NCBI GenBank assembly: GCA_963575645.1
Contig: OY754466.1
Span: 16,656,001-16,720,000 of the forward strand
DNA from: Xanthostigma xanthostigma
Lineage: Eukaryota > Arthropoda > Insecta > Raphidioptera > Raphidiidae
DNA: 64,000 nt
Direction of reading: 5' to 3'
The stretch's first letter is position 1. Each line of letters begins with the position of its first letter. Shown here one piece after another: positions 13,881 through 56,065 of the stretch. A program made the position numbers and the translations under genes. The notes below the pieces were generated by a model. That model did not search any database and was not told where the DNA came from. It saw only the letters and a program-made list of their open reading frames with translations.

Positions 13881-14241
13881 CATTTTTATACAATTCGTAA
13901 AGACCGTAGCACACGAGGCTGAAAACACTGCTAGAACTTCTGCTGGCTGGCAGGCTGGGTACAAGTCTGCGGGCTCGCCTGATAGCTCACAAGATATATT
14001 TTAAAATTAGGGACTATTTTTCTTGCTAGGTTCTCTGCTTGCTCTGAGCAAGAACCAATCAGGAAACAGTATCTTGTCACGTGAGCTCACAAACCAACAT
14101 GGCGTCATTCTGCTCAGTCAGACAACAGGCACGTTTTGCTCTGTGTTTATATTTGAACTGTTACTGCGCGCGCACCAGCGATTCATCCACAAAGCCAACT
14201 TGAAAAGACGTCTCGTGTGAAGCGAAGACATAAAAGCAATA

Positions 14242-15024
14242 GTTGGCAAAACCAAAAGTGCACATCCCGCAAGTTTTCCACTGTACATATTATAATGAAA
14301 AAAAATTGAGAAAATAGATTTAAAAAAAAAAAAACAATTAAAAAAATAGAAAAAAAATAAAAATAAAATGGAATAGAAAAAAAAAATATTACTTGGTGTC
14401 AAGCGGGAATCGAACTCGGCACCTTGCTATTACTGGACTACGCGTTTAACCACTCGGCCATTCTGATATCCCAGCTTGCGTTGTTATTATGGTATAGAAG
14501 TGGAGCAGTTATTCTACGTAATACACTACATTACAATAACAGTAATAGATATTTTTTTGTTTTTTTAAGGTTTTTTTATTTTAACTATTAGCTGTCAAAA
14601 ATAATAAAATAAAACTGTTTATAAAAATTAAACTACTGAACACATTTATGTGAATTTAAATAGGGTTCTGGTCTGATAGTAAACAAAGTGAATAAAATAT
14701 AACCCAAGGCAATCCGACCAAAATTGCGATCTGTAGAGTCGTGACGTACGTACATACGTACATACGTACATCCGTACATACGTACAGACCAACCGACAAC
14801 TGCTGTTTGTAACTTTCAATTACAATTTTAATAGTATTTATGAACTCGAATTGATTTAAAAATGGTTCTGTTTTATAGATCAGAATCTCCTCTTTTCAAA
14901 AAGCTTCAATTTGAATGGATTTCGTGTGAAATTAACTTAGATATAACTTCTTATATGAACGAAAGTCAGCTCTGATGCTCAAAGCGATAATAAAGCACAT
15001 ACCGCTAATTTAGCGGTATGTGCA
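14242..15024 (+). mobile_element. Family E element, copy 1
   Basis: Begins TA|GTTGGCAAAACCAAAAG and ends with a hairpin, GCACATACCGCTA-ATT-TAGCGGTATGTGC. In between come an A-rich tract, a reverse-oriented tRNA-like module (14393-14472), a (TACG)n tract (about 14744-14787) and a conserved 3' third. Nearly identical to the minus-strand copy at 41948-42716 and less similar to the plus-strand copy at 40827-41915. No protein is encoded. Confidence 0.75.
14393..14472 (-). ncRNA. tRNA-like module inside E copy 1
   Basis: Read on the minus strand: A box TGGCCGAGTGGTTAA, B box AGTTCGATTCCCGC. It resembles a Leu/Ser-type tRNA head but lacks a clean cloverleaf. Probably a pol III promoter remnant of a SINE-like part. 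Confidence 0.6.
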
Positions 15025-18370: not shown

Positions 18371-20681
18371 TTTACACATTTCCAAGTCCCTTGATCCGAA
18401 AATAATTGTTCTAAAAAATATCTGTCTGTCTGCCTGTCTGTAATGACACCTAGAGCCCAAACTACTGACTGGTAAAATTTTACAAATGTTGTGACGGTCG
18501 CACCTCCAGGTGAAATCGTAAAATGAGTTCTAACTCAAATATGAAAAAAAAACCCTGAAAAAATAGATGAAAAAACCGGTTATTATTTTTTTATGCAAAT
18601 ATATATCAATAGTTTGCTATTGTTGTTATGAAACACACATTGCTACAGTTGCACTTCAGAAAATGTCTACAACTTTTCAGGTACGTCCCTGTATATTGTC
18701 TTGTTTTACCAATTAAACGTAACGGTGATATGTTTTACCGACAGCAGGTGATATATGGAACACAAGATATTAAAATAAACACATTACTTAGCAAAACAAG
18801 GTTATGGTGGCTTTCTGACCATATTAGCAATTGATTCAACATAATATCTCGTTTCGCCGTGTCCGAAACCAGATACGTTTCAAACCCATTCAAGTATCAA
18901 TGTTAATGCGCTCGTACTTACCGACCAGTCGTTTGTGCTTGCACTCTGCACGCAAAATATTAAATATTAAAGACGTCTCCTTGGCTTTAAGAATTATCAA
19001 GAATTGTATTTTTTCAGAGACATTTTGACTACATAAAGTTGAAATTGACATTGTAGAGAAAGTGGTCGCTTGAGTACTAACTTGAAGTACGAAAAGCTGA
19101 AATTTTATTTTAAGAGTCATTTTTCGGGGGTGGAAGGAAAGACAAAAATAAAATGTTTATTTTATGTATTTGTTTTTGCGATAATGGCCTTAGTTGCTGA
19201 TTCGCTTATTTTGTTTTTTAAAATAAAAAAAAAAAAATGTTTATTCGGGGTTGTCATGTGGGATACCAAACGAAAGCTTTTTAAAGCGCGAATTAAAAAA
19301 TATAAATATTTTTTTTATCTAAACTTTTATTTCATTTTTCAAAAAAATCTTTGAAAAATCATTGCCAGCAGCCAATTTTGACAAATATGGCTCAGAATAA
19401 TCCGAAAAAATCAAGAGTGTTGATATAAGTAAATCTGCACTTAAAAAAAAATTGTAAAACTTAATAGGTGACAGATGAGTGAACAAGAAATGTATATTTA
19501 GATAAATAAAATATAATTAATAAATAAACTATAAATCTTTTGTATTCGAGTACAAGAACATCATTGTAACTTGACTTCTAAAAATAAATAATGACAACAA
19601 TACTTTCTAAAATCTGCTTGAAATATCCACAGCTTTGGTTTTAGATAATAATAATTTATACTAACATATTTAGACAATCTTTATAGGCCTTTGACCAACA
19701 GGCGTAACTGCTTAGTGCTGTTAAGTTTTTCTTTTTATTTTGAATGCATTATTAGGTACCTAGTCTTTTCAGCGTTTAAGTGTATTTTAGTGATGTAAAG
19801 TTAAAAATTTTGAATTTAAATTGCACTTCAAAAGTCACGACTGACGATTAATACAAAAAAATGACAAATTCATTTGATGATAAATATCGGTTTTAAGAAA
19901 ATTACTTTTTAAAACGCGATGTTTTGCTTCGATATTTTGACGTCACTAAAATGGTGTTTATAAAACGTTATAAGTTTTGTATCGGTTTATTTTTTTAATT
20001 TTAGGTTTATGGATTTGAGATTAAAATTCTGAGAACAATTTAAAAAAATAACAAATACCTGCAGTGGAGAACACGCCATGCGTCATGATGCGTGTCGAAT
20101 TTATTTAAAAATTATGTATTTAATATGTTTTGTGATTTTATAATCTTCTGGTAATTATTTGAAACAAAATTGGTTTTCATTTAAAAAATATATAACATAT
20201 TTTGTCCGTCGAAATCTAGAATTCGATTTTTTTTCTTTACTCCTGTGTAGTCCAAAAACGATCTTCGTGAAATACCTAAAATCTCAAACGGCTAAAAATT
20301 TCAGTGATCGTTCTTGGGGTTACAAGAAACTATTCTGACTATGAAAAAGTGTTGTTTTCTAATTATCTCACAAGCTATGAGATATATGAAAAAAGGTTTC
20401 GACAAAAAGTTGTAGATTTTTATATTTGCTACGATAAAGTGCTCCACCCTCTTACCCCTATCTGCAATAGTTTACCCATAAATCGCCCCTAAAGGTAAAA
20501 AAATTGAAAATCATTATTTTCCTCGGCTGATTCGGGGTTTTTGTGACATTTTAAGAAGAAATTATTCTTGGTATTTTCTTCGAAAAATGAATATTTTAGA
20601 AATTACAAAAAAACGGTAACCCCTTTGCACAATACTAGCGTCTTTCGTGTCGTCACAATACACGCAGTCCGTCAGTTGTAC
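18371..20681. other. Unassigned intergenic sequence
   Basis: A GTCTGTCTGCCTGTCTGT run lies at 18420-18440. Frames at 18628-19354 and 20304-20492 have no recognisable domain, signal peptide or splice-supported structure. No gene is called. Confidence 0.4.
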
Positions 20682-21166: not shown

Positions 21167-21457
21167 TTAATGATGTACAAGAACCGGATGAGCAGCATGG
21201 ACAACTGGAACAATTGGGGCCGCTTTGACGACCGGTACGGTATGTACGACTGGGGCAGCGTGAACAACTGGCACAGTCTTGACGAGTGGGGCCGGATGGT
21301 GGACAACTGAGCCATGATGCACTACGGAGTGGGATACAACTGGAGCTGCGTGGACAACGGGAGCATGATGGACGACTGGAGCGGCGTGGACAACCGGAGC
21401 AACACCGATGTAGCCTGGGGCGGCGGCAGCGCAAGCCAGGACAGCGGCAAGAACGAA
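21167..21457 (-). CDS. Cuticle-type secreted protein, exon 2
   Basis: This exon supplies residues 5-100 of a predicted 100-residue protein. The minus-strand acceptor is a run of ten T then ATCGCAG directly before TTCGTTCTTGCC, in frame with the 4-codon first exon at 23728-23739. The joined protein opens with a signal peptide (hydrophobic to about residue 17, cleavage near the AAAA-PGY boundary). The rest is a low-complexity repeat of [16 protein letters not shown] and VPVVHAAP units, rich in His, Ala, Pro and Val, with no Cys after the leader and no Rebers-Riddiford chitin-binding consensus. Such proteins are known as low-complexity structural components of insect cuticle. Role: extracellular matrix of the exoskeleton, inferred from composition. 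The alternative start upstream of the acceptor (codon at 21500) would lie in intron sequence and spoil the leader, so the spliced model is preferred. Confidence 0.85.
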
Positions 21458-21699
21458 CTGCGATAAAAAAAAAATGCGATAAGATTCTTTTAGCAAAAAC
21501 ATGTTTTGTACGACTGTATATCTGTAGTAAAGTGACCCATTTATAGCACTAGTTCTTAAAATAAAACCAAACGTTGTCGTACAACCATTTCCACAGTAAA
21601 TGTGTGAAAATCCAACGCAGCCTATACATTTGGAAGTGAACTCAGAACTGAACTGTCAAAATTTTTAAAAATTTGTGAAAATCAGCTAATTTAGAGGGA

Positions 21700-33019: not shown

Positions 33020-33476
33020 CCACAGGTTTTTATTTTTTTTAATTTTTTAGGTAACAGATAGCGTGTATCTGTTAAGAGTAAGTTGTAGAATAATGTTGGG
33101 GCTATAATATTATGTATACATTTGGTCTCTACCTGGTTGCTACCTGTTTGCTACCTGCGCTCTAATTTGGCCAAAATGTCAGTTTTAATCAAAGTAAATT
33201 TATGGGTGTGGGGAAGGACCTAACGAATTGTCATTAATATATGTTGTAGATAACGTACATACCTTTCGATTGTGCATAGGTAAAATTTTCTTTGATTTCA
33301 TACCTGTCCCGTCAAAGGTCAGGTATTGGCGGCAAACATATTTGCCTTTCGGCGGCAATGGAAATTTCTACATTTCTTATTCAGTATTGTATTGACAGTC
33401 AAACAAGCAGCGAACTGAACGTATTTGATTTCATTGTTACTGATTTTTTGTGTTTTTCTTATTTTGTGAATTGACG

Positions 33477-34121
33477 ATGAATAATCCACACAGTTCTGCC
33501 CGTGATCGCTTGTTTTTTGTTAGTCCGAATGAAATAGAACAGTTTCTTTTATGTGATGAAAGCGACGAATACGATGAAGAAAGTGTGCTGCAGTTGGACG
33601 ATGAAGACAATGCATTTTTGGAAAATGATGCGACCGAGTCACTAGCAACTGAGAACCTCGTCGAGGTGATAATCGAAAGTGCGAAGAGGAAGAGTGTCAA
33701 ATCGCCGCCGCCGAAACGACAGCGTAAAGAACGAGAATTGACTGCACCAGTCGCCGATCCAATTCCTTCAACGTCATTTGCTTCTCCAGTCACCGAACCG
33801 ACTTCTTCAACTTCATTTACTGCACCCGTGATTGAACCAACTCCCCGTGTTCCTGTACCAGTGGCCGAAGAGCCACCAAGATTGAAGTTGCCAAAATATG
33901 ACCCTGTTTTTCGTTTTCGCACAATAAATAATTATATCGAGCCAATGTTCACCGGCGTTCAATTGGATTGTCTATACAAGCTAGTAAAGCCAAAAATCCA
34001 CACAACATGGCGAAGCGAAAAAACTGGAAGCCGCACGAACGTATTTTGCATTCAGTGCAATGTATTTCTGGGCTTCAGCGCATCCCCTGACTGCTTTGCA
34101 TATTACCGTCGCCAAAAATAA
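33477..34121 (+). CDS. piggyBac-like protein lacking the catalytic core (214 aa)
   Basis: The ATG at 33477 is preferred over upstream non-ATG codons in the same frame. Residues 1-70 are acidic (IEQFLLCDESDEYDEESV, then LDDEDN), as in piggyBac transposase N-termini. Residues about 75-90 are basic (SPPPKRQRKER), a possible nuclear signal. Residues 93-145 are Pro/Thr/Ser-rich, with three near-repeats of APVxxPxPSTSF. After a short bridge the C-terminus (TNVFCIQCNVF...DCFAYYRR) resembles the Cys-rich end of the family. The DDD catalytic region of about 300 residues is absent, but the frame is intact across the junction. It cannot transpose by itself; it might bind element ends. Whether it is expressed is unknown. 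Confidence 0.72.
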   Translation: MNNPHSSARDRLFFVSPNEIEQFLLCDESDEYDEESVLQLDDEDNAFLENDATESLATENLVEVIIESAKRKSVKSPPPKRQRKERELTAPVADPIPSTSFASPVTEPTSSTSFTAPVIEPTPRVPVPVAEEPPRLKLPKYDPVFRFRTINNYIEPMFTGVQLDCLYKLVKPKIHTTWRSEKTGSRTNVFCIQCNVFLGFSASPDCFAYYRRQK

Positions 34122-40562: not shown

Positions 40563-40826
40563 TAATAATAATAATAATTTTTATTAATCCAGTAGATCGT
40601 AAGATATAAGACATGTCAATATATATATATATATAAAATATTATATCACGTTAGAATTTTCAATTACTAACGAAAACAATAATAAACAAATAATAATAAA
40701 TAATTATAAATAAATAACAATCAAAATAAGATAAAATGACGAACAATAACAAATATATAAATAACAAATAAAACAAAATAAAATGTAAATAACAAATTAA
40801 AAGTCATTTAAAAAATCATTAAAATA

Positions 40827-41915
40827 GTTGGCAAAACCAAAAGTGCACATCCCGCAAGTTTTCCACTGTACATTATATTATAATGAAAAAAATTGAGAAA
40901 ATAGATTAAAACAAATAAAAAAAAAATAAAAGTATACGAGAAACATTAGTAAAATAAGAAATTTTTTTTAGCAATTATGCACGGGTTTTGCTCTCAAAAA
41001 TCCCGATTTTTTGAGTTTCTTGTCCTAGTTTATTGACTTTCTAGTTTATCGAAGAACGCATTTTATAGACACAATATCCCAAAACACTATTTTTCAAGAA
41101 TATCCCACCGCTACACTAGCGGTATGTGCAATAGATTAAAAAAAACAATTAAAAAATTAAAATGAAAAAAATAAAATAAAAAAAAAAAATAATAATAAAA
41201 AAAATATATGAGAAATATATTATATATAATATATAAATATTAAGTGGAATTAAGTGGAATAAATGGGAATATATAAAAAAAAAAAATTCTTATGTCAGCG
41301 GGAATCGAACCCGGCACCTTGGGATTACAGGACTTACGCTTTAACCGTTCGGCCACACCGATGCCGTACAACGCCTTTGTTATTATGGTATAGAAGTGTA
41401 GCAGTTATTTTACGTATCATACTACATTAATTGAGTATATTTATTATGTTTTTTGTTTTTTTATTTTAATTAGCTGTCAAAAATAATAAAAAAAAAACTG
41501 TTTATAAAAATTAAACTACTGAACACATTTTAGTGAATTTAAATAGGGTTCTGGTCTGATAGTAAACAAAGTGAATAAAATATAACCCAAGGGGATCCGA
41601 CCAAAATTGCGATCTGTAGAGTCGTGACGTACGTACATACGTACGTACGTACGTACGTACGTACGTACATACGTACAGACCAACCGACAACTGCTGTTTG
41701 TGATTTTCAATTACAATTTTAATAGTATTTATGAACTCGAATTGATTTAAAAATGGTTCTGTTTTATAGATCAGAATCTCCTCTTTTCAAAAAGTTTCAT
41801 TTTGAATGGATTTCGTGTGAAATTAACTTAGATATAACTTCTTATCTGAACGAAAGTCAGCTCTGTTGCACAAAGCGATAATAAAGCACATACCGCTAGT
41901 TTAGCGGTATGTGCA
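40827..41915 (+). mobile_element. Family E element, copy 2 (plus arm of palindrome)
   Basis: From TA|GTTGGCAAAACC to the hairpin GCACATACCGCTA-GT-TTAGCGGTATGTGC. It includes an expanded (TACG)n tract (41628-41675) and a reverse tRNA-like module. A 222-bp insert (about 40909-41130) is bounded by ATAGATTA repeats (40901 and 41131) and itself ends in CTAGCGGTATGTGC. Confidence 0.75.
41292..41368 (-). ncRNA. tRNA-like module in E copy 2
   Basis: Minus strand: TGTGGCCGAACGGTTAAAGC (A box) and CCGGGTTCGATTCCCGCTGA (perfect T arm and B box). Of the E copies this has the best-preserved pol III elements. A full acceptor stem is not evident. Confidence 0.65.
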
Positions 41916-41947
41916 AAACAATAATATGCCTTTCCAATTAACATATT

Positions 41948-42716
41948 GCACATACCGCTAAATTAGCGGTATGTGCTTTATTATCGCTTTGAGCGTCAGA
42001 GCTGACTTTCGTTCATATAAGAAGTTATATCTAAGTTAATTTCACACGAAATCCATTCAAATTGAAGCTTTTTGAAAAGAGGAGATTCTGATCTATAAAA
42101 CAGAACCATTTTTAAATCAATTCGAGTTCATAAATACTATTAAAATTGTAATTGAAAGTTACAAACAGCAGTTGTCGGTTGGTCTGTACGTATGTACGGA
42201 TGTACGTATGTACGTACGTCACGACTCTACAGATCGCAATTTTGGTCGGATTGCCTTGGGTTATATTTTATTCACTTTGTTTACTATCAGACCAGAACCC
42301 TATTTAAATTCACATAAATGTGTTCAGTAGTTTAATTTTTATAAACAGTTTTATTTTATTATTTTTGACAGCTAATAGTTAAAATAAAAAACCTTAAAAA
42401 AACAAAAAAATACCTATTACTGTTATTGTAATGTAGTGTATTACGTAGAATAACTGCTCCACTTCTATACCATAATAACAACGCAAGCTGGGATATCAGA
42501 ATGGCCGAGTGGTTAAACGCGTAGTCCAGTAATAGCAAGGTGCCGAGTTCGATTCCCGCTGACACCAAGTAAATTTTTTTTTTCTATTCCATTTTATTTT
42601 TATTTTTTTTTCTATTTTTTTAATTGTTTTTTTTTTAAATCTATTTTCTCAATTTTTTTTCATTATAATATGTACAGTGGAAAACTTGCGGGATGTGCAC
42701 TTTTGGTTTTGCCAAC
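41948..42716 (-). mobile_element. Family E element, copy 3 (minus arm of palindrome)
   Basis: Mirror of copy 2, with GTTGGC at its outer end next to TA (42717-42718). Its tRNA module, (TACG)n tract and hairpin are almost identical to copy 1 at 14242-15024, and clearly different from copy 2 in the tRNA part. Confidence 0.78.
42489..42567 (+). ncRNA. tRNA-like module in E copy 3
   Basis: ATGGCCGAGTGGTTAAACGC (A box) and GAGTTCGATTCCCGCT (B box). Points away from the module of copy 2. Confidence 0.62.
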
Positions 42717-43679
42717 TATTTTTTATTAAAAATGAAAAATCTTTAAAATTTAAGAGCTTTATATCTTTAGGTATTTTATTAAAAGCTTTTATAGCTGAGT
42801 ATTTAATGCCTTTTTCATAAAAAGTGGACTTATGCCTAGGATAAAATAAAACTATGTCATTTCTAGTGTTATAATTATGAAATTGTTGTACTGTAGAAAA
42901 TTCATTAATATTTTTGCGCGCATATAATAGCAACTGAAATATGTACAAACTAGGAACGGTCATAATTTCTAATTTTTTAAAAATATCTTTACAGCTCGTT
43001 CTGCTGTTAACACCAAACATGGCACGAATGGCTCTTTTTTGTAACTTAAAAACCCTGCACACTTCAGAAGCATTCCCCCAAGCAATTATGCCATAAGAAA
43101 TATGGGAATGGAAGAATGCAAAATAAAAACTTTTTAAAATATTAAAATGGACTGTTGGCCTAAGCTGTTTTAATACATAACATGTGGAAGCAAGCTTGCT
43201 GCACAAGTTATCAATATGTATACTCCAACTGCAATTTTGATCTATAACCACACCAAGAAATTTTGTACTATTCACTTGCGCAATGCTCAAACTATTGGTT
43301 TTTACTAAAAGACTATGATCTATGTTTTTATTAGAAATATTAAATTTTATCATAACTGATTTTTTATTATTAAGAAATAATTTATTTTTAGAAAACCATT
43401 GATGTAGAGTAGATAGATCTTCATTGGCAATAGAGGTAATATCAGAACTTACATCAGAATTCACAAAAACAGATGTGTCATCGGCAAACATTATTGTATT
43501 GTTAAGTGGTATATCATTGACATATATAATAAATAATAAAGGACCTAAAACAGATCCCTGAGGAACGCCTTTAGAGAGATATAAACGCTCAGACTGTTTG
43601 TCCTTTAACTGCACAAAATGTGATCTTCCACTAAGGTAAGATTTAAACCAACTCCAAGTGATACCTCTGATACCATAGT
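42717..43679 (-). pseudogene. LINE reverse transcriptase, C-terminal half
   Basis: The frame is open from the truncation point, with no genuine start codon. In order: GIRGITWSWFKSYLSGR, GVPQGSVLGPLLFIIYVNDI, MFADDTSVFV with the catalytic Asp pair, FLNNKKSVMIKF, FLGVVIDQNCSW, and a long tail (HSHISYGIIAWGNA, KLQKRAIRAMFG). These are RT motifs 3-7 and thumb wording of Jockey/CR1-type non-LTR retrotransposons. The N-terminal half, endonuclease and ORF1 are absent. The E insertion breaks the frame about six codons before the natural stop and adds 16 codons of E sequence. Dead copy. Confidence 0.85.
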
Positions 43680-44325
43680 TTTACGTGATAACGTATTCCG
43701 TAATACATAACCTAAACCTCCCAAAATTTGGTTTCAATCCGCTTATCCTTGGTGTCGGAATGATAAGAAATGTCAAAAGTGACGTTTGCAACTGTCAAAG
43801 TATTATGTTCTAATAATAATTAGTTATTCCAATACTTAACTTAGAAGGCGTTGCATTTCACAAAATACTAATGTCAAAAAATTGAATTAAACATTAGAAA
43901 TGCAGCCGTTTTCATGTTAAGACAAGACATACGTTATTTTCTAATTTCCATGTACGGCAAACAAAGACGACCGACCGCGTCGCGCCATGCATTAGACAAC
44001 ATTGCATTTATACAGCTATTTTTCTATATAAATTTGTATAAAAAAACTGTTTAGGCAAATTCTGTTATACGAAATCTATGTAAAATGTTCTCCTCTTTCG
44101 TTTAAGACTGGTTTCAAACCGATCTGATTTAAATTGAGCGAGAAATTAGCAAAAAGCACGCACAGGGTCAGGCGGAACGTTACGCGTTACGAACGTTAGG
44201 AACGTTAGGAACGTTACACTTTTTCGTGCATGCAGCCGGTGTTTTATCAATTTATAAGATTGGTGATTCATCAATTTATAAGATTGGTGATTCATCAATT
44301 TATAAGACGTTATCACGTCAAAAAT
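43677..44325 (+). repeat. Repeat G, right part, inside element L
   Basis: GTTTTACGTGATAACGTATTC to ACGTTATCACGTCAAAA, whose ends are inverse to each other (about 16 bp). Carries TTGGTGTCGGAATGATAAG, CAACTGTCAAAGTATTATG and small GTTAGGAAC direct repeats at about 44195-44218. Other copies at 54662 and 55455. Confidence 0.75.
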
Positions 44326-48039: not shown

Positions 48040-48325
48040 CAAGGGGCGAATGACGAAATTTTAGGACATTATGATAAGGTAGGCAAATTCTGAGCATAGG
48101 AGGTCGACAGGTCATTGGCCACGGCCTTGAATAAGGAACCACCTCGATAATTATCTGCAATTATTGAGGGAAACCATGGAAAACCTCAACAAGATGGCCG
48201 GTACAGAAATTACCGTTTCTCGTCGAAAGACAGCAGGAAAAAGTCCCACCCACGGAATTCGCCGGAATTCGAACCTGGTACCTCCAGAAGTCTAGTGTTC
48301 TTACCGCTATACGCTACACTGCTCA
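48040..48325 (-). mobile_element. tRNA-derived SINE
   Basis: On the minus strand the head GTGTAGCGTATAGCGGTAAG (A box) and CCAGGTTCGAATTCCGGC (B box) at 48323-48258 is followed by a body with GTGGGACTTTTTCCTGCTGT, CTTTCGACGAGAAACGG, AGATTGAG-free CCATGGTTTCCCTCAAT and CCGTGGCCAATGACCTGTCG. Head-plus-body layout is that of a SINE. The 3' end was not precisely placed. Confidence 0.65.
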
Positions 48326-48399
48326 TTATATTCGTTAAAATGTGATGTCGTAAAAGTTGGTAGGTACGCATTTGTTTTATTCGCTACACTGCTAATGGG

Positions 48400-48770
48400 T
48401 GTACTCTATTATCACTTTACGTCAGAGGTTTCGTTAATTCAAGAAGCTATATCTAGGCTAATTGTGCACGAAACACATTCAAATTGTAGCTTTTTGAAAA
48501 AAGAAAGATTGTGTTCTATAAAGTGGAACCACGGCTAGGTTGATTCAAGTTCATAATAAGTCCTAAAATTTTAACTGATAACTGCGAACTGCGTACGTCC
48601 AAACTGTACAGGTCGGATATCTAGACGATACGCCTATAGATTTATTAATTTTTATTTTAATTGTTTACTGTGAGCATAAAACCCTATTTAAATTAATTAA
48701 AATGCGTTCAGTGGTTTAATTTTTATAAACAATTTTATTTTATTATTTTATGACAGCTAATAAAGTATTC
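48400..48770 (-). mobile_element. Diverged family E fragment
   Basis: TCAAGAAGCTATATCTAGGCTAAT, TTCAAATTGTAGCTTTTTGAAAA and ATTTATAAACAATTTTATTTTATTATTT follow the order of the 41990-42370 part of E copy 3, at lower identity. tRNA module and ends are missing. Confidence 0.65.
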
Positions 48771-48904
48771 AAAATAGATAATGAATATACATGACGCATC
48801 ATCAACATACTATTTTATCAACGACTAAAGTGGATAAAATAGCGTCCGACAGTAAACGGTTTAATTGAGATAGGCTGGAAAGCTTTTATGGCGCGTGTAT
48901 ACGA

Positions 48905-54415: not shown

Positions 54416-54659
54416 TAAGGAGTCGTGCGTCGAAGCTGACACACACACACACACACTTTTTTTTAATAATGGCATGAATCGTGTTGACAAAGCAACAAAC
54501 ATGGATGCAACAAACGATAGTAACGAACTATGCACAAGTTTTCTTTTTTTCCACCGCGAGCATCATTTTCGGAAACAGGTTAGCCCATATACAAGATTAG
54601 CCTTTCATCCCGGATTTGCCCGAGTAGATTTTAATTTGGCAATGACATTGTCAAAAGAA

Positions 54660-56065
54660 AAAATTGGTTGTCTGTAAAGTTGGTTTACGGACGATAGTTT
54701 TACGTGATAACGTATTCCATAATACATAACCTAAACCTCCCAAAATTTGGTTTCAATCCGCTTATCCTTGGTGTCGGAATGATAAGAAATGTCAAAAGTG
54801 ACGTTTGCAACTGTCAAAGTATTATGTTCTAATAATAATTAGTTATTCCAATACTTAACTTAGAAGGCGTTGCATTTCACAAAACACTAATGTCAAAAAA
54901 TTGAATTAAACATTAGAAATGCAGCCGTTTTCATGTTAAGACAAGACATACGTTATTTTCTAATTTCCATGTACGGCAAACAAAGACAACCGACCGCGTC
55001 GCGCCATGCATTAGACAACATTGCATTTATACAGCTATTTTTCTATATAAATTTGTATAAAAAAAATTGGTTGTCTGTAAAGTCGGTTTACGGACGATAG
55101 TTTTACGTGATAACGTATTGCGTAATACATAACCTAAATTTATATAATAATTATAATAATTCGAATCTATGATATTGCATCTTTCGCTTCAAATTTAGGT
55201 AAATTTTATTAAGTAGAATAATAAAACACTATAAAAAGTACACTATTATTATATAAAAAACAACTATGGCATGTATCTCTTTTGCGCATGCGCCGATTTT
55301 CCCCAAAAAATTTACAAAAATTTCTAGTAAAAATAGATAGAGTAAAAACCGTTTTAAAAACTATATTATTATTATATAAAACATCATTATAAGAGATATA
55401 TTCTTTTACGCATGCGCCGATGTTCCCCAAAAACAATAGGCCACTTCATATTTGCATATCAAACATCCTCCCAAAATTTGGTTTCAATCCGCTTATCCTT
55501 GGTGTCGGAATGATAAGAAATGTCAAAAGTGACGTTTGCAACTGTCAAAGTATTATGTTCTAATAATAATTAGTTATTCCAATAGTTAACTTAGAAGGCT
55601 TTGCATTTCACAAAATACTAATGTCAAAAAATTGAATTAAACATTAGAAATGCAGCCGTTTTCATGTTAAGACAAGACATACGTTATTTTCTAATTTCCA
55701 TGTACGGCAAACAAAGACGACCGACCGCGTCGCGCGCGCGCCATGCATTAGACAACAATGCATTTATACAGCTATTTTTCTATATAAATTTGTATAAAAA
55801 AACTGTTTTGGCAAATTCTGTTATACGAAATCTATGTAAAATGTTCTCCTCTTTCGTTTAAGACTGGTTTCAAACCGATCTGATTTAAATTGAGCGAGAA
55901 ATTAGCAAAAAGCACGCACAGGGTCAGGCGGAACGTTACGCGTTAGGAACGTTAGGAATGTTAGGAACGTTACGTTACACTTTTTCGAACATGCAGCCGG
56001 TGTTTTATCAATTTATAAGATTGGTGATTCATCAATTTATAAAACGTTATCGCGTCAAAAATCTG
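54660..56065 (+). repeat. Cluster of repeat G and A segments
   Basis: G units at 54662-55068 and 55455-56062, a G head only at 55069-55140, and in between two tandem versions of the family A middle (CGCATGCGCCGATTTTCCCC near 55285, CGCATGCGCCGATGTTCCCC near 55410). A and G join smoothly at AACATCCTCCCAAAATTTGG, so G looks like a recombinant of A. Confidence 0.7.

Follow-up and report, generated by a model that had tools for sequence, protein, structure and literature searches.

The palindrome at 40825–42718 of the window, by which we mean the whole stretch of 64,000 nucleotides analyzed here (GC content 28–37% per 2 kb), consists of two arms of one repeat family, denoted E, which lie in inverted orientation, are unequally related and are separated by a short spacer. 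All E copies described below lie within this window, and two of the four known copies are only 33 bases apart. The copies are as follows:

40825–41914, minus strand: E1, the composite copy (plus arm of the sequence-only reading that preceded this analysis), made up of the E1 5' part and nested F, with two 5' ends and one 3' end
40825–41129, minus strand: F, a short relative nested in E1, with its own 5' hairpin end at TT and the 3' end common to both; the route of fusion is conjectural
41948–42718, plus strand: E2, a probable HINE-like element (minus arm of the sequence-only reading), from 5' hairpin end to 3' CTA end
14240–15023, minus strand: solo E copy of the subfamily of E2, with A to B boxes at 14407–14460
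48400–48790, plus strand: distant copy of the E core without the tRNA-like module, 67–69% to E2 and the solo copy over 48400–48762

Several other features share the window. Adjoining fragments of a reverse transcriptase (RVT_1) and a tyrosine recombinase (Phage_integrase) are found at 340–1356, and we take them to be DIRS-like. The open reading frame (ORF) at 33444–34121, presumably part of a piggyBac-type transposase by its look, had no Pfam match at 0.001. A repeat-rich ORF on the minus strand (21167–21655) yielded 9 weak matches, 7 of them named, all insect proteins, with two named cuticle protein; we assume a resemblance to insect cuticle proteins. Together with the GC content and the LINE described below, the fragments at 340–1356 and the matches of this ORF mark the window as eukaryotic and probably insect.

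The sequence-only reading had described inverted arms with TA and an identical GTTGGCAAAACC on both outer flanks, and had placed the minus arm closer to the solo copy than to its own partner. Both descriptions hold. In pairwise alignment, the minus arm and the solo copy share 768 matches with 2 mismatches and 16 gap columns (99.7% identity without gaps), as against about 92% between the minus arm and the core of its partner; the identity between the arms is not higher than that between the minus arm and the solo copy. More precisely, the plus-arm core (41131–41914) matches the minus arm at 92.2% outside gaps and the solo copy at 92.5% outside gaps (649 matches, 53 mismatches and 105 gap columns). 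When gaps are included, BLAST puts the identity of the minus arm and the solo copy at 97.6% and that of the two arms, over their core, at 87.0%. The plus arm is the longer of the two because it contains F, a nested relative of ~305 bases. The rejection of a simple inverted duplication, which had been argued previously, is in our judgement right. The spacer, formerly given as 32 bp, measures 33 bases (41915–41947).

Ends of the E elements

Read in the direction opposite to that adopted in the sequence-only reading, E resembles a non-autonomous Helentron. In this orientation, the element runs from TT-GCACATACCGC...GCGGTATGTGC (13-bp stem) through the core, the TACG tract, the tRNA-like module, a T-rich block and the inverted GCGGGATGTGC to CAACTA-TT, its termini being GCAC...CAACTA between Ts. 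The landmarks in the two arms are:

41948–41976: 5' palindromic repeat of E2, 13-bp stem
41886–41914: 5' palindromic repeat of E1, 13-bp stem
42688–42698, plus strand: 3' inverted copy of the 5' repeat in E2 (GCGGGATGTGC, 10/11), 20 bases from the CTA end
42186–42219: (TACG)n tract of E2
41627–41677: (TACG)n tract of E1

In the sequences of the solo copy, E1 and E2, the palindromic 5' repeat forms a perfect 13-bp stem directly after TT. The E1 and E2 hairpins fold at −15.1 kcal/mol, with 0 of 200 shuffles as good, and a search for the hairpin pattern with up to 3 mismatches returned 3 sites in the window, all of them exact, and 0 in 100 shuffles. At the opposite end of E2, the 10/11 match of the inverted repeat was equalled by 11 of 5000 shuffles; the 3' end of the element folds at −5.1 kcal/mol, and 21 of 200 and 17 of 200 shuffles fold equally well. 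Moreover, TT is present outside the hairpin end in 4 of 4 cases (solo copy, E1, E2 and F) and after the CTA end in 3 of 3.

The TA on the outer sides of the pair had been taken as a sign of a single unit. This TA lies inside an identical stretch, GGTTTTGCCAACTATT, which has three exact sites in the window, one per E copy. A fourth, GGTTTTGCCAACTATT-like site (18562–18577, 3 mismatches) is within chance. Since all three copies carry TA at the same end, the outer TA is best read as the terminus of E itself, and it carries no information on whether the pair is a single unit. In the proposed mechanism, it would be the 3' terminus of the element (...GCCAACTA, then Ts).

The ends also bear on the suggestion of a cut-and-paste MITE (Tc1/mariner-like, for instance) with TA duplications, in which case the pair would represent two such insertions. 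GTTGGC adjoins TA at one end in all three copies, in agreement with such an element, but the extreme ends of E do not form an inverted-repeat pair, Ts rather than TA lie directly outside the hairpin end of the solo copy, E1 and E2, and the best empty-site model (see below) loses TA plus 2 or 4 more A/T bases. We consider a MITE unlikely.

The closest likeness is with the HINE/DINE-1-like Helentrons. As described in PMC4067079, mite HINEs carry palindromic subTIRs that lie two to four bases inside the 5' end and occupy T-rich targets with at least two Ts per side, the targets being unmodified and the number of Ts variable, and the repeat of Drosophila DINE-1 is without the palindromic form. Elements of this type share with E a palindromic subterminal repeat (in the mite families) just inside the TT end, a microsatellite-like tract, the T-rich target, the varying number of Ts and, probably, an inverted repeat near the other end (PMC4067079). 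E differs from them in that its 3' repeat is 20 bases away from the end, whereas the 3' inverted subTIR of mite HINEs lies 38–60 bases from it, and in that E lacks a significant 3' palindrome but carries a tRNA-like module with A and B boxes (PMC4067079). Lepidopteran Hel-2 Helitrons, as described in PMC4344730, are likewise non-autonomous and have a hairpin, a subterminal inverted repeat and a tetranucleotide tract; however, they end in 5'-TC and 3'-CTAG with flanking A/T, and E is without these termini. The canonical Helitron ends (5'-TC, 3'-CTRR, insertion between A and T) are not those of E. E agrees with the mite HINEs in most of the features named above; judging from its sequence, it resembles a HINE and probably is one.

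No autonomous Helentron was seen in the window. Exact scans of viral contigs with the 29-base E end and the hairpin gave 0 loci, viral and prokaryotic collections saying little on this point, and an exact scan of prokaryotic and viral genome contigs with a 23-mer of the E core also gave 0, which has little weight for an animal element. Among the matches listed in the literature search, no title referred to a HINE with a tRNA module or to a head-to-head HINE pair.

The host LINE and the 33-base spacer

The pair is located within a LINE, which is the target and does not itself belong to the mobile pair, and whose reverse transcriptase we assume to be CR1/jockey-like:

40565–43674, minus strand: 5'-truncated LINE copy hosting the pair (RVT_1 match, homologues; boundaries approximate)
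42715–43680, minus strand: LINE reverse-transcriptase ORF fragment, cut by the minus arm after FLIK(N) (RVT_1, homologues)
41915–41947, minus strand: spacer of 33 bases, with the LINE-coding reading NMLIGKAYYCF
40797–40820, minus strand: final LINE ORF codons, NDFLNDF and stop

On the minus strand, the LINE ORF is interrupted at FKDFSFLIKN by the minus arm, and the spacer frame, read on the LINE strand, links FLIK on one flank to NDFLNDF* on the other. Close LINE homologues have the tail FKxxIKxxLIEKxYYSLNEYLND or similar: a couple of residues, then LL/LI, a K-x-YYS-x-x-E-F/Y motif and, shortly behind it, a stop. The homologue search matched 6919 sequences, of which 120 were listed, and the profile was built from 92 of these 120; the other 28 were excluded, their ends not fitting the terminal-motif pattern, and this exclusion favours that motif. 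The top-8 and top-20 profiles are subsets of the 92 homologues.

The spacer was evaluated with a free-offset test and a hidden Markov model (HMM) search, then in a fixed register and, last, by enumeration of empty sites. The free six-frame, any-offset test was weak, its score being reached by 573 of 20000 shuffles and 735 of 20256 window 33-mers. In this test the spacer fits best at offset 15, which is the one that joins up with offset 26, the best for the left flank by itself; the right-flank peptide alone fits best at offset 11, and the joined reading uses 6. In the HMM search, the model that keeps the spacer ranked first, below the inclusion threshold (9.2 bits, E 0.049), and single-unit models had E 13 or worse. 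In the fixed register with the top-8 profile, the spacer score was reached by none of the shuffles, whether dinucleotide (0 of 20000) or mononucleotide (0 of 20000), and among the 121532 window 33-mers by 2; the corresponding counts were 0, 1 and 3 for the top-20 profile, and 1, 2 and 31 for the profile of all 92 homologues. The joined reading scored 22.4 with the spacer and 0.2 for a TA-joined single unit, with a true homologue at 49.5.

Since the analysis turned up no relative of this LINE copy at the DNA level, the empty site was deduced from protein. We reconstructed 90 empty sites, 81 with the spacer and 9 without, penalising stops and varying the removed bases of the single-unit models on one side only. 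The best of them keeps the spacer and scored 31.0, followed by 19.4 for the next and −3.9 for the best single-unit model (25.2, 9.7 and −12.1, respectively, with the top-20 profile). In the winning site, TA and AA are removed at one junction and TA and AAAA at the other. The 2 or 4 extra A/T bases at these protein-derived sites could be either Ts of the element or a short duplication of the target. On this comparison of coding sequence, the spacer is most likely part of the host LINE, and thus the arms most likely arrived separately.

Two explanations had been offered for the pair by the sequence-only reading, which left two tip-to-tip insertions in second place; it is these that are supported here. 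The explanation preferred there was a hetero-dimer of two E subfamilies that moves as a 1.9-kb unit with long inverted arms and a TA target duplication, and the TA and identical sequence at both outer sides are what it would produce. Such a unit, however, would have to carry by chance a spacer that is in-frame LINE coding sequence, its removal as a whole leaves a LINE without the conserved YYS..E end (the best score being −3.9 compared to 31.0), and the solo copy has TA at the same end and AATT at the other. We regard this explanation as highly improbable. A single E insertion, with the second arm produced by replication-linked inverted duplication and gene conversion with another copy, would agree with the close head-to-head spacing, which we expect to be rare for two random insertions, but the LINE sequence bordering each arm's own ends joins up in frame, and differences between the arms, the nested F among them, extend along their length. 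This too appears very unlikely.

The composite arm and the tRNA-like module

A second hairpin end, GCACATACCGCTAGTGTAGCGGT, lies within the plus arm at 41129/41130, where it comes after CTATT. From this point F extends to 40825, with a hairpin stem of 7 bp, a middle of its own and the common 3' end; the composite arm thus combines two 5' ends with a single 3' end. By eye the middle of F had appeared akin to the E core. The blastn matches listed for it were mainly A/T-rich, plus a 23-base hairpin, and F is therefore tied to E by its ends only. Non-canonical Helitrons of Fusarium, as described in PMC5148889, possess several 5' termini and one 3' terminus, which is attributed to self-insertion followed by transposition to the first 3' end. 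E1-F shares with these composites, as presented there, the multiple 5' termini and the single 3' terminus, and differs in being a non-autonomous animal element, represented by one composite and with a conjectural mechanism (PMC5148889). By analogy, the composite may have arisen when F inserted into a T-rich stretch of an E1 element; a deletion that took place later, between two 3' ends, would account for it equally well.

The tRNA-like module is represented in the arms by the following segments:

42502–42555, plus strand: tRNA-like A box to B box of E2
41302–41355, minus strand: tRNA-like A box to B box of E1

Outward-facing A and B boxes, reported previously for each arm, are present, and all of them point away from the hairpin end. 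The A-to-B-box pattern, which was written after the copies had been seen, has 3 sites in the window, one per E copy (E1, E2 and solo), and a T run follows the boxes of the module. ARAGORN, with the bacterial code setting, called 0 tRNAs, and Rfam at the gathering threshold returned 0 families across the whole window. At a loose threshold, Rfam gave 36 matches in 41200–42700, all under their gathering scores and none to a tRNA family; most were microRNA models that matched the centre of the palindrome or the TACG tract, and a 15-base tmRNA fragment over the E1 B box scored 13.6 bits against a gathering score of 47. As RNA, the modules showed no folding advantage over shuffles, of which 173, 188 and 71 of 200 folded equally well. 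For the module, identity between the arms is 80% over 70 bases, as against 91–94% in the three longest hairpin-side stretches; the outer 106 bases are 80% identical ungapped and 90% with gaps. Nothing in these alignments points to special constraint on the module. The distant copy of the core (48400–48790), in which the hairpin end has decayed and the core match ends at 48762 or slightly further, has no alignment over the module. Beside this copy, on the minus strand (48250–48330), lies a short tRNA/SINE-like stretch recognized by eye (AGCGGTAAGAACACTAGACTTCTGGAGGTACCAGGTTCGAATTCC), which is a different module.

The boxes raise the question of whether E is a tRNA-derived SINE mobilised by a LINE. 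They are correctly spaced and followed by a T run, as in such an element. Nevertheless, they lie ~550 bases from the hairpin end, which makes the module internal; the tRNA-like part is without alignment in the distant core copy; the ends of E show neither an A tail nor a long target duplication, and the element terminates in a perfect DNA palindrome; and the module RNAs fold no better than shuffles. We give a SINE origin hardly any credence. The module is most likely a captured relic: a decayed, pol III promoter-like piece that would have been captured and carried along in the E family. More speculatively, and with only a slim chance of being correct, a Helentron-type family might have domesticated a pol III promoter through the A and B boxes, with a short transcript running in the direction of the element to the T run, forming a rolling-circle/SINE hybrid whose T-rich interior would be a preferred landing site for its kin and so give rise to nests, composites and head-to-head pairs.

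Proposed order of insertion and implications

In our view, the palindrome was with high probability formed by two independent, opposite insertions of one non-autonomous, probably Helentron-like (HINE/DINE-1-like) family into T-rich sites 33 bases apart, within the 3' end of the coding region of an older LINE. An autonomous Helentron located elsewhere would have supplied the Rep/helicase that copied each E as a single strand, the palindromic 5' end and the 3' end marking the start and the stop of copying, and each E would have been joined into a T-rich site without target duplication. A spacing of 33 bases between two E copies is unlikely under random insertion; the preference for T-rich targets may help.

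The LINE was itself inserted in a repeat, of which an unoccupied copy at ~54692 (TTTACGGACGATA-GTTTTACG) marks the LINE insertion site. Unoccupied, locally duplicated pieces of this repeat, which hosts the LINE at 40565–43674, are found at 54658–55138 and 55467–56042. We infer the order of insertion as the host repeat, the LINE, and then E1 (with F) and E2. The near-identity of the E2 sequence with that of the solo copy suggests that these represent the youngest activity.

Apart from the unusual tRNA-like stretch in each copy, the pattern is real and its cause most likely ordinary, namely the layering of transposons. The coding frame of the host LINE preserves, within the locus, a record of the empty site and is of help in choosing between one unit and two insertions without recourse to other copies. 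With E, the HINE-like families probably gain a member that carries a tRNA-like module, together with a composite copy that has two 5' ends, and the E family bears on the capture and chaining of sequences by rolling-circle elements.
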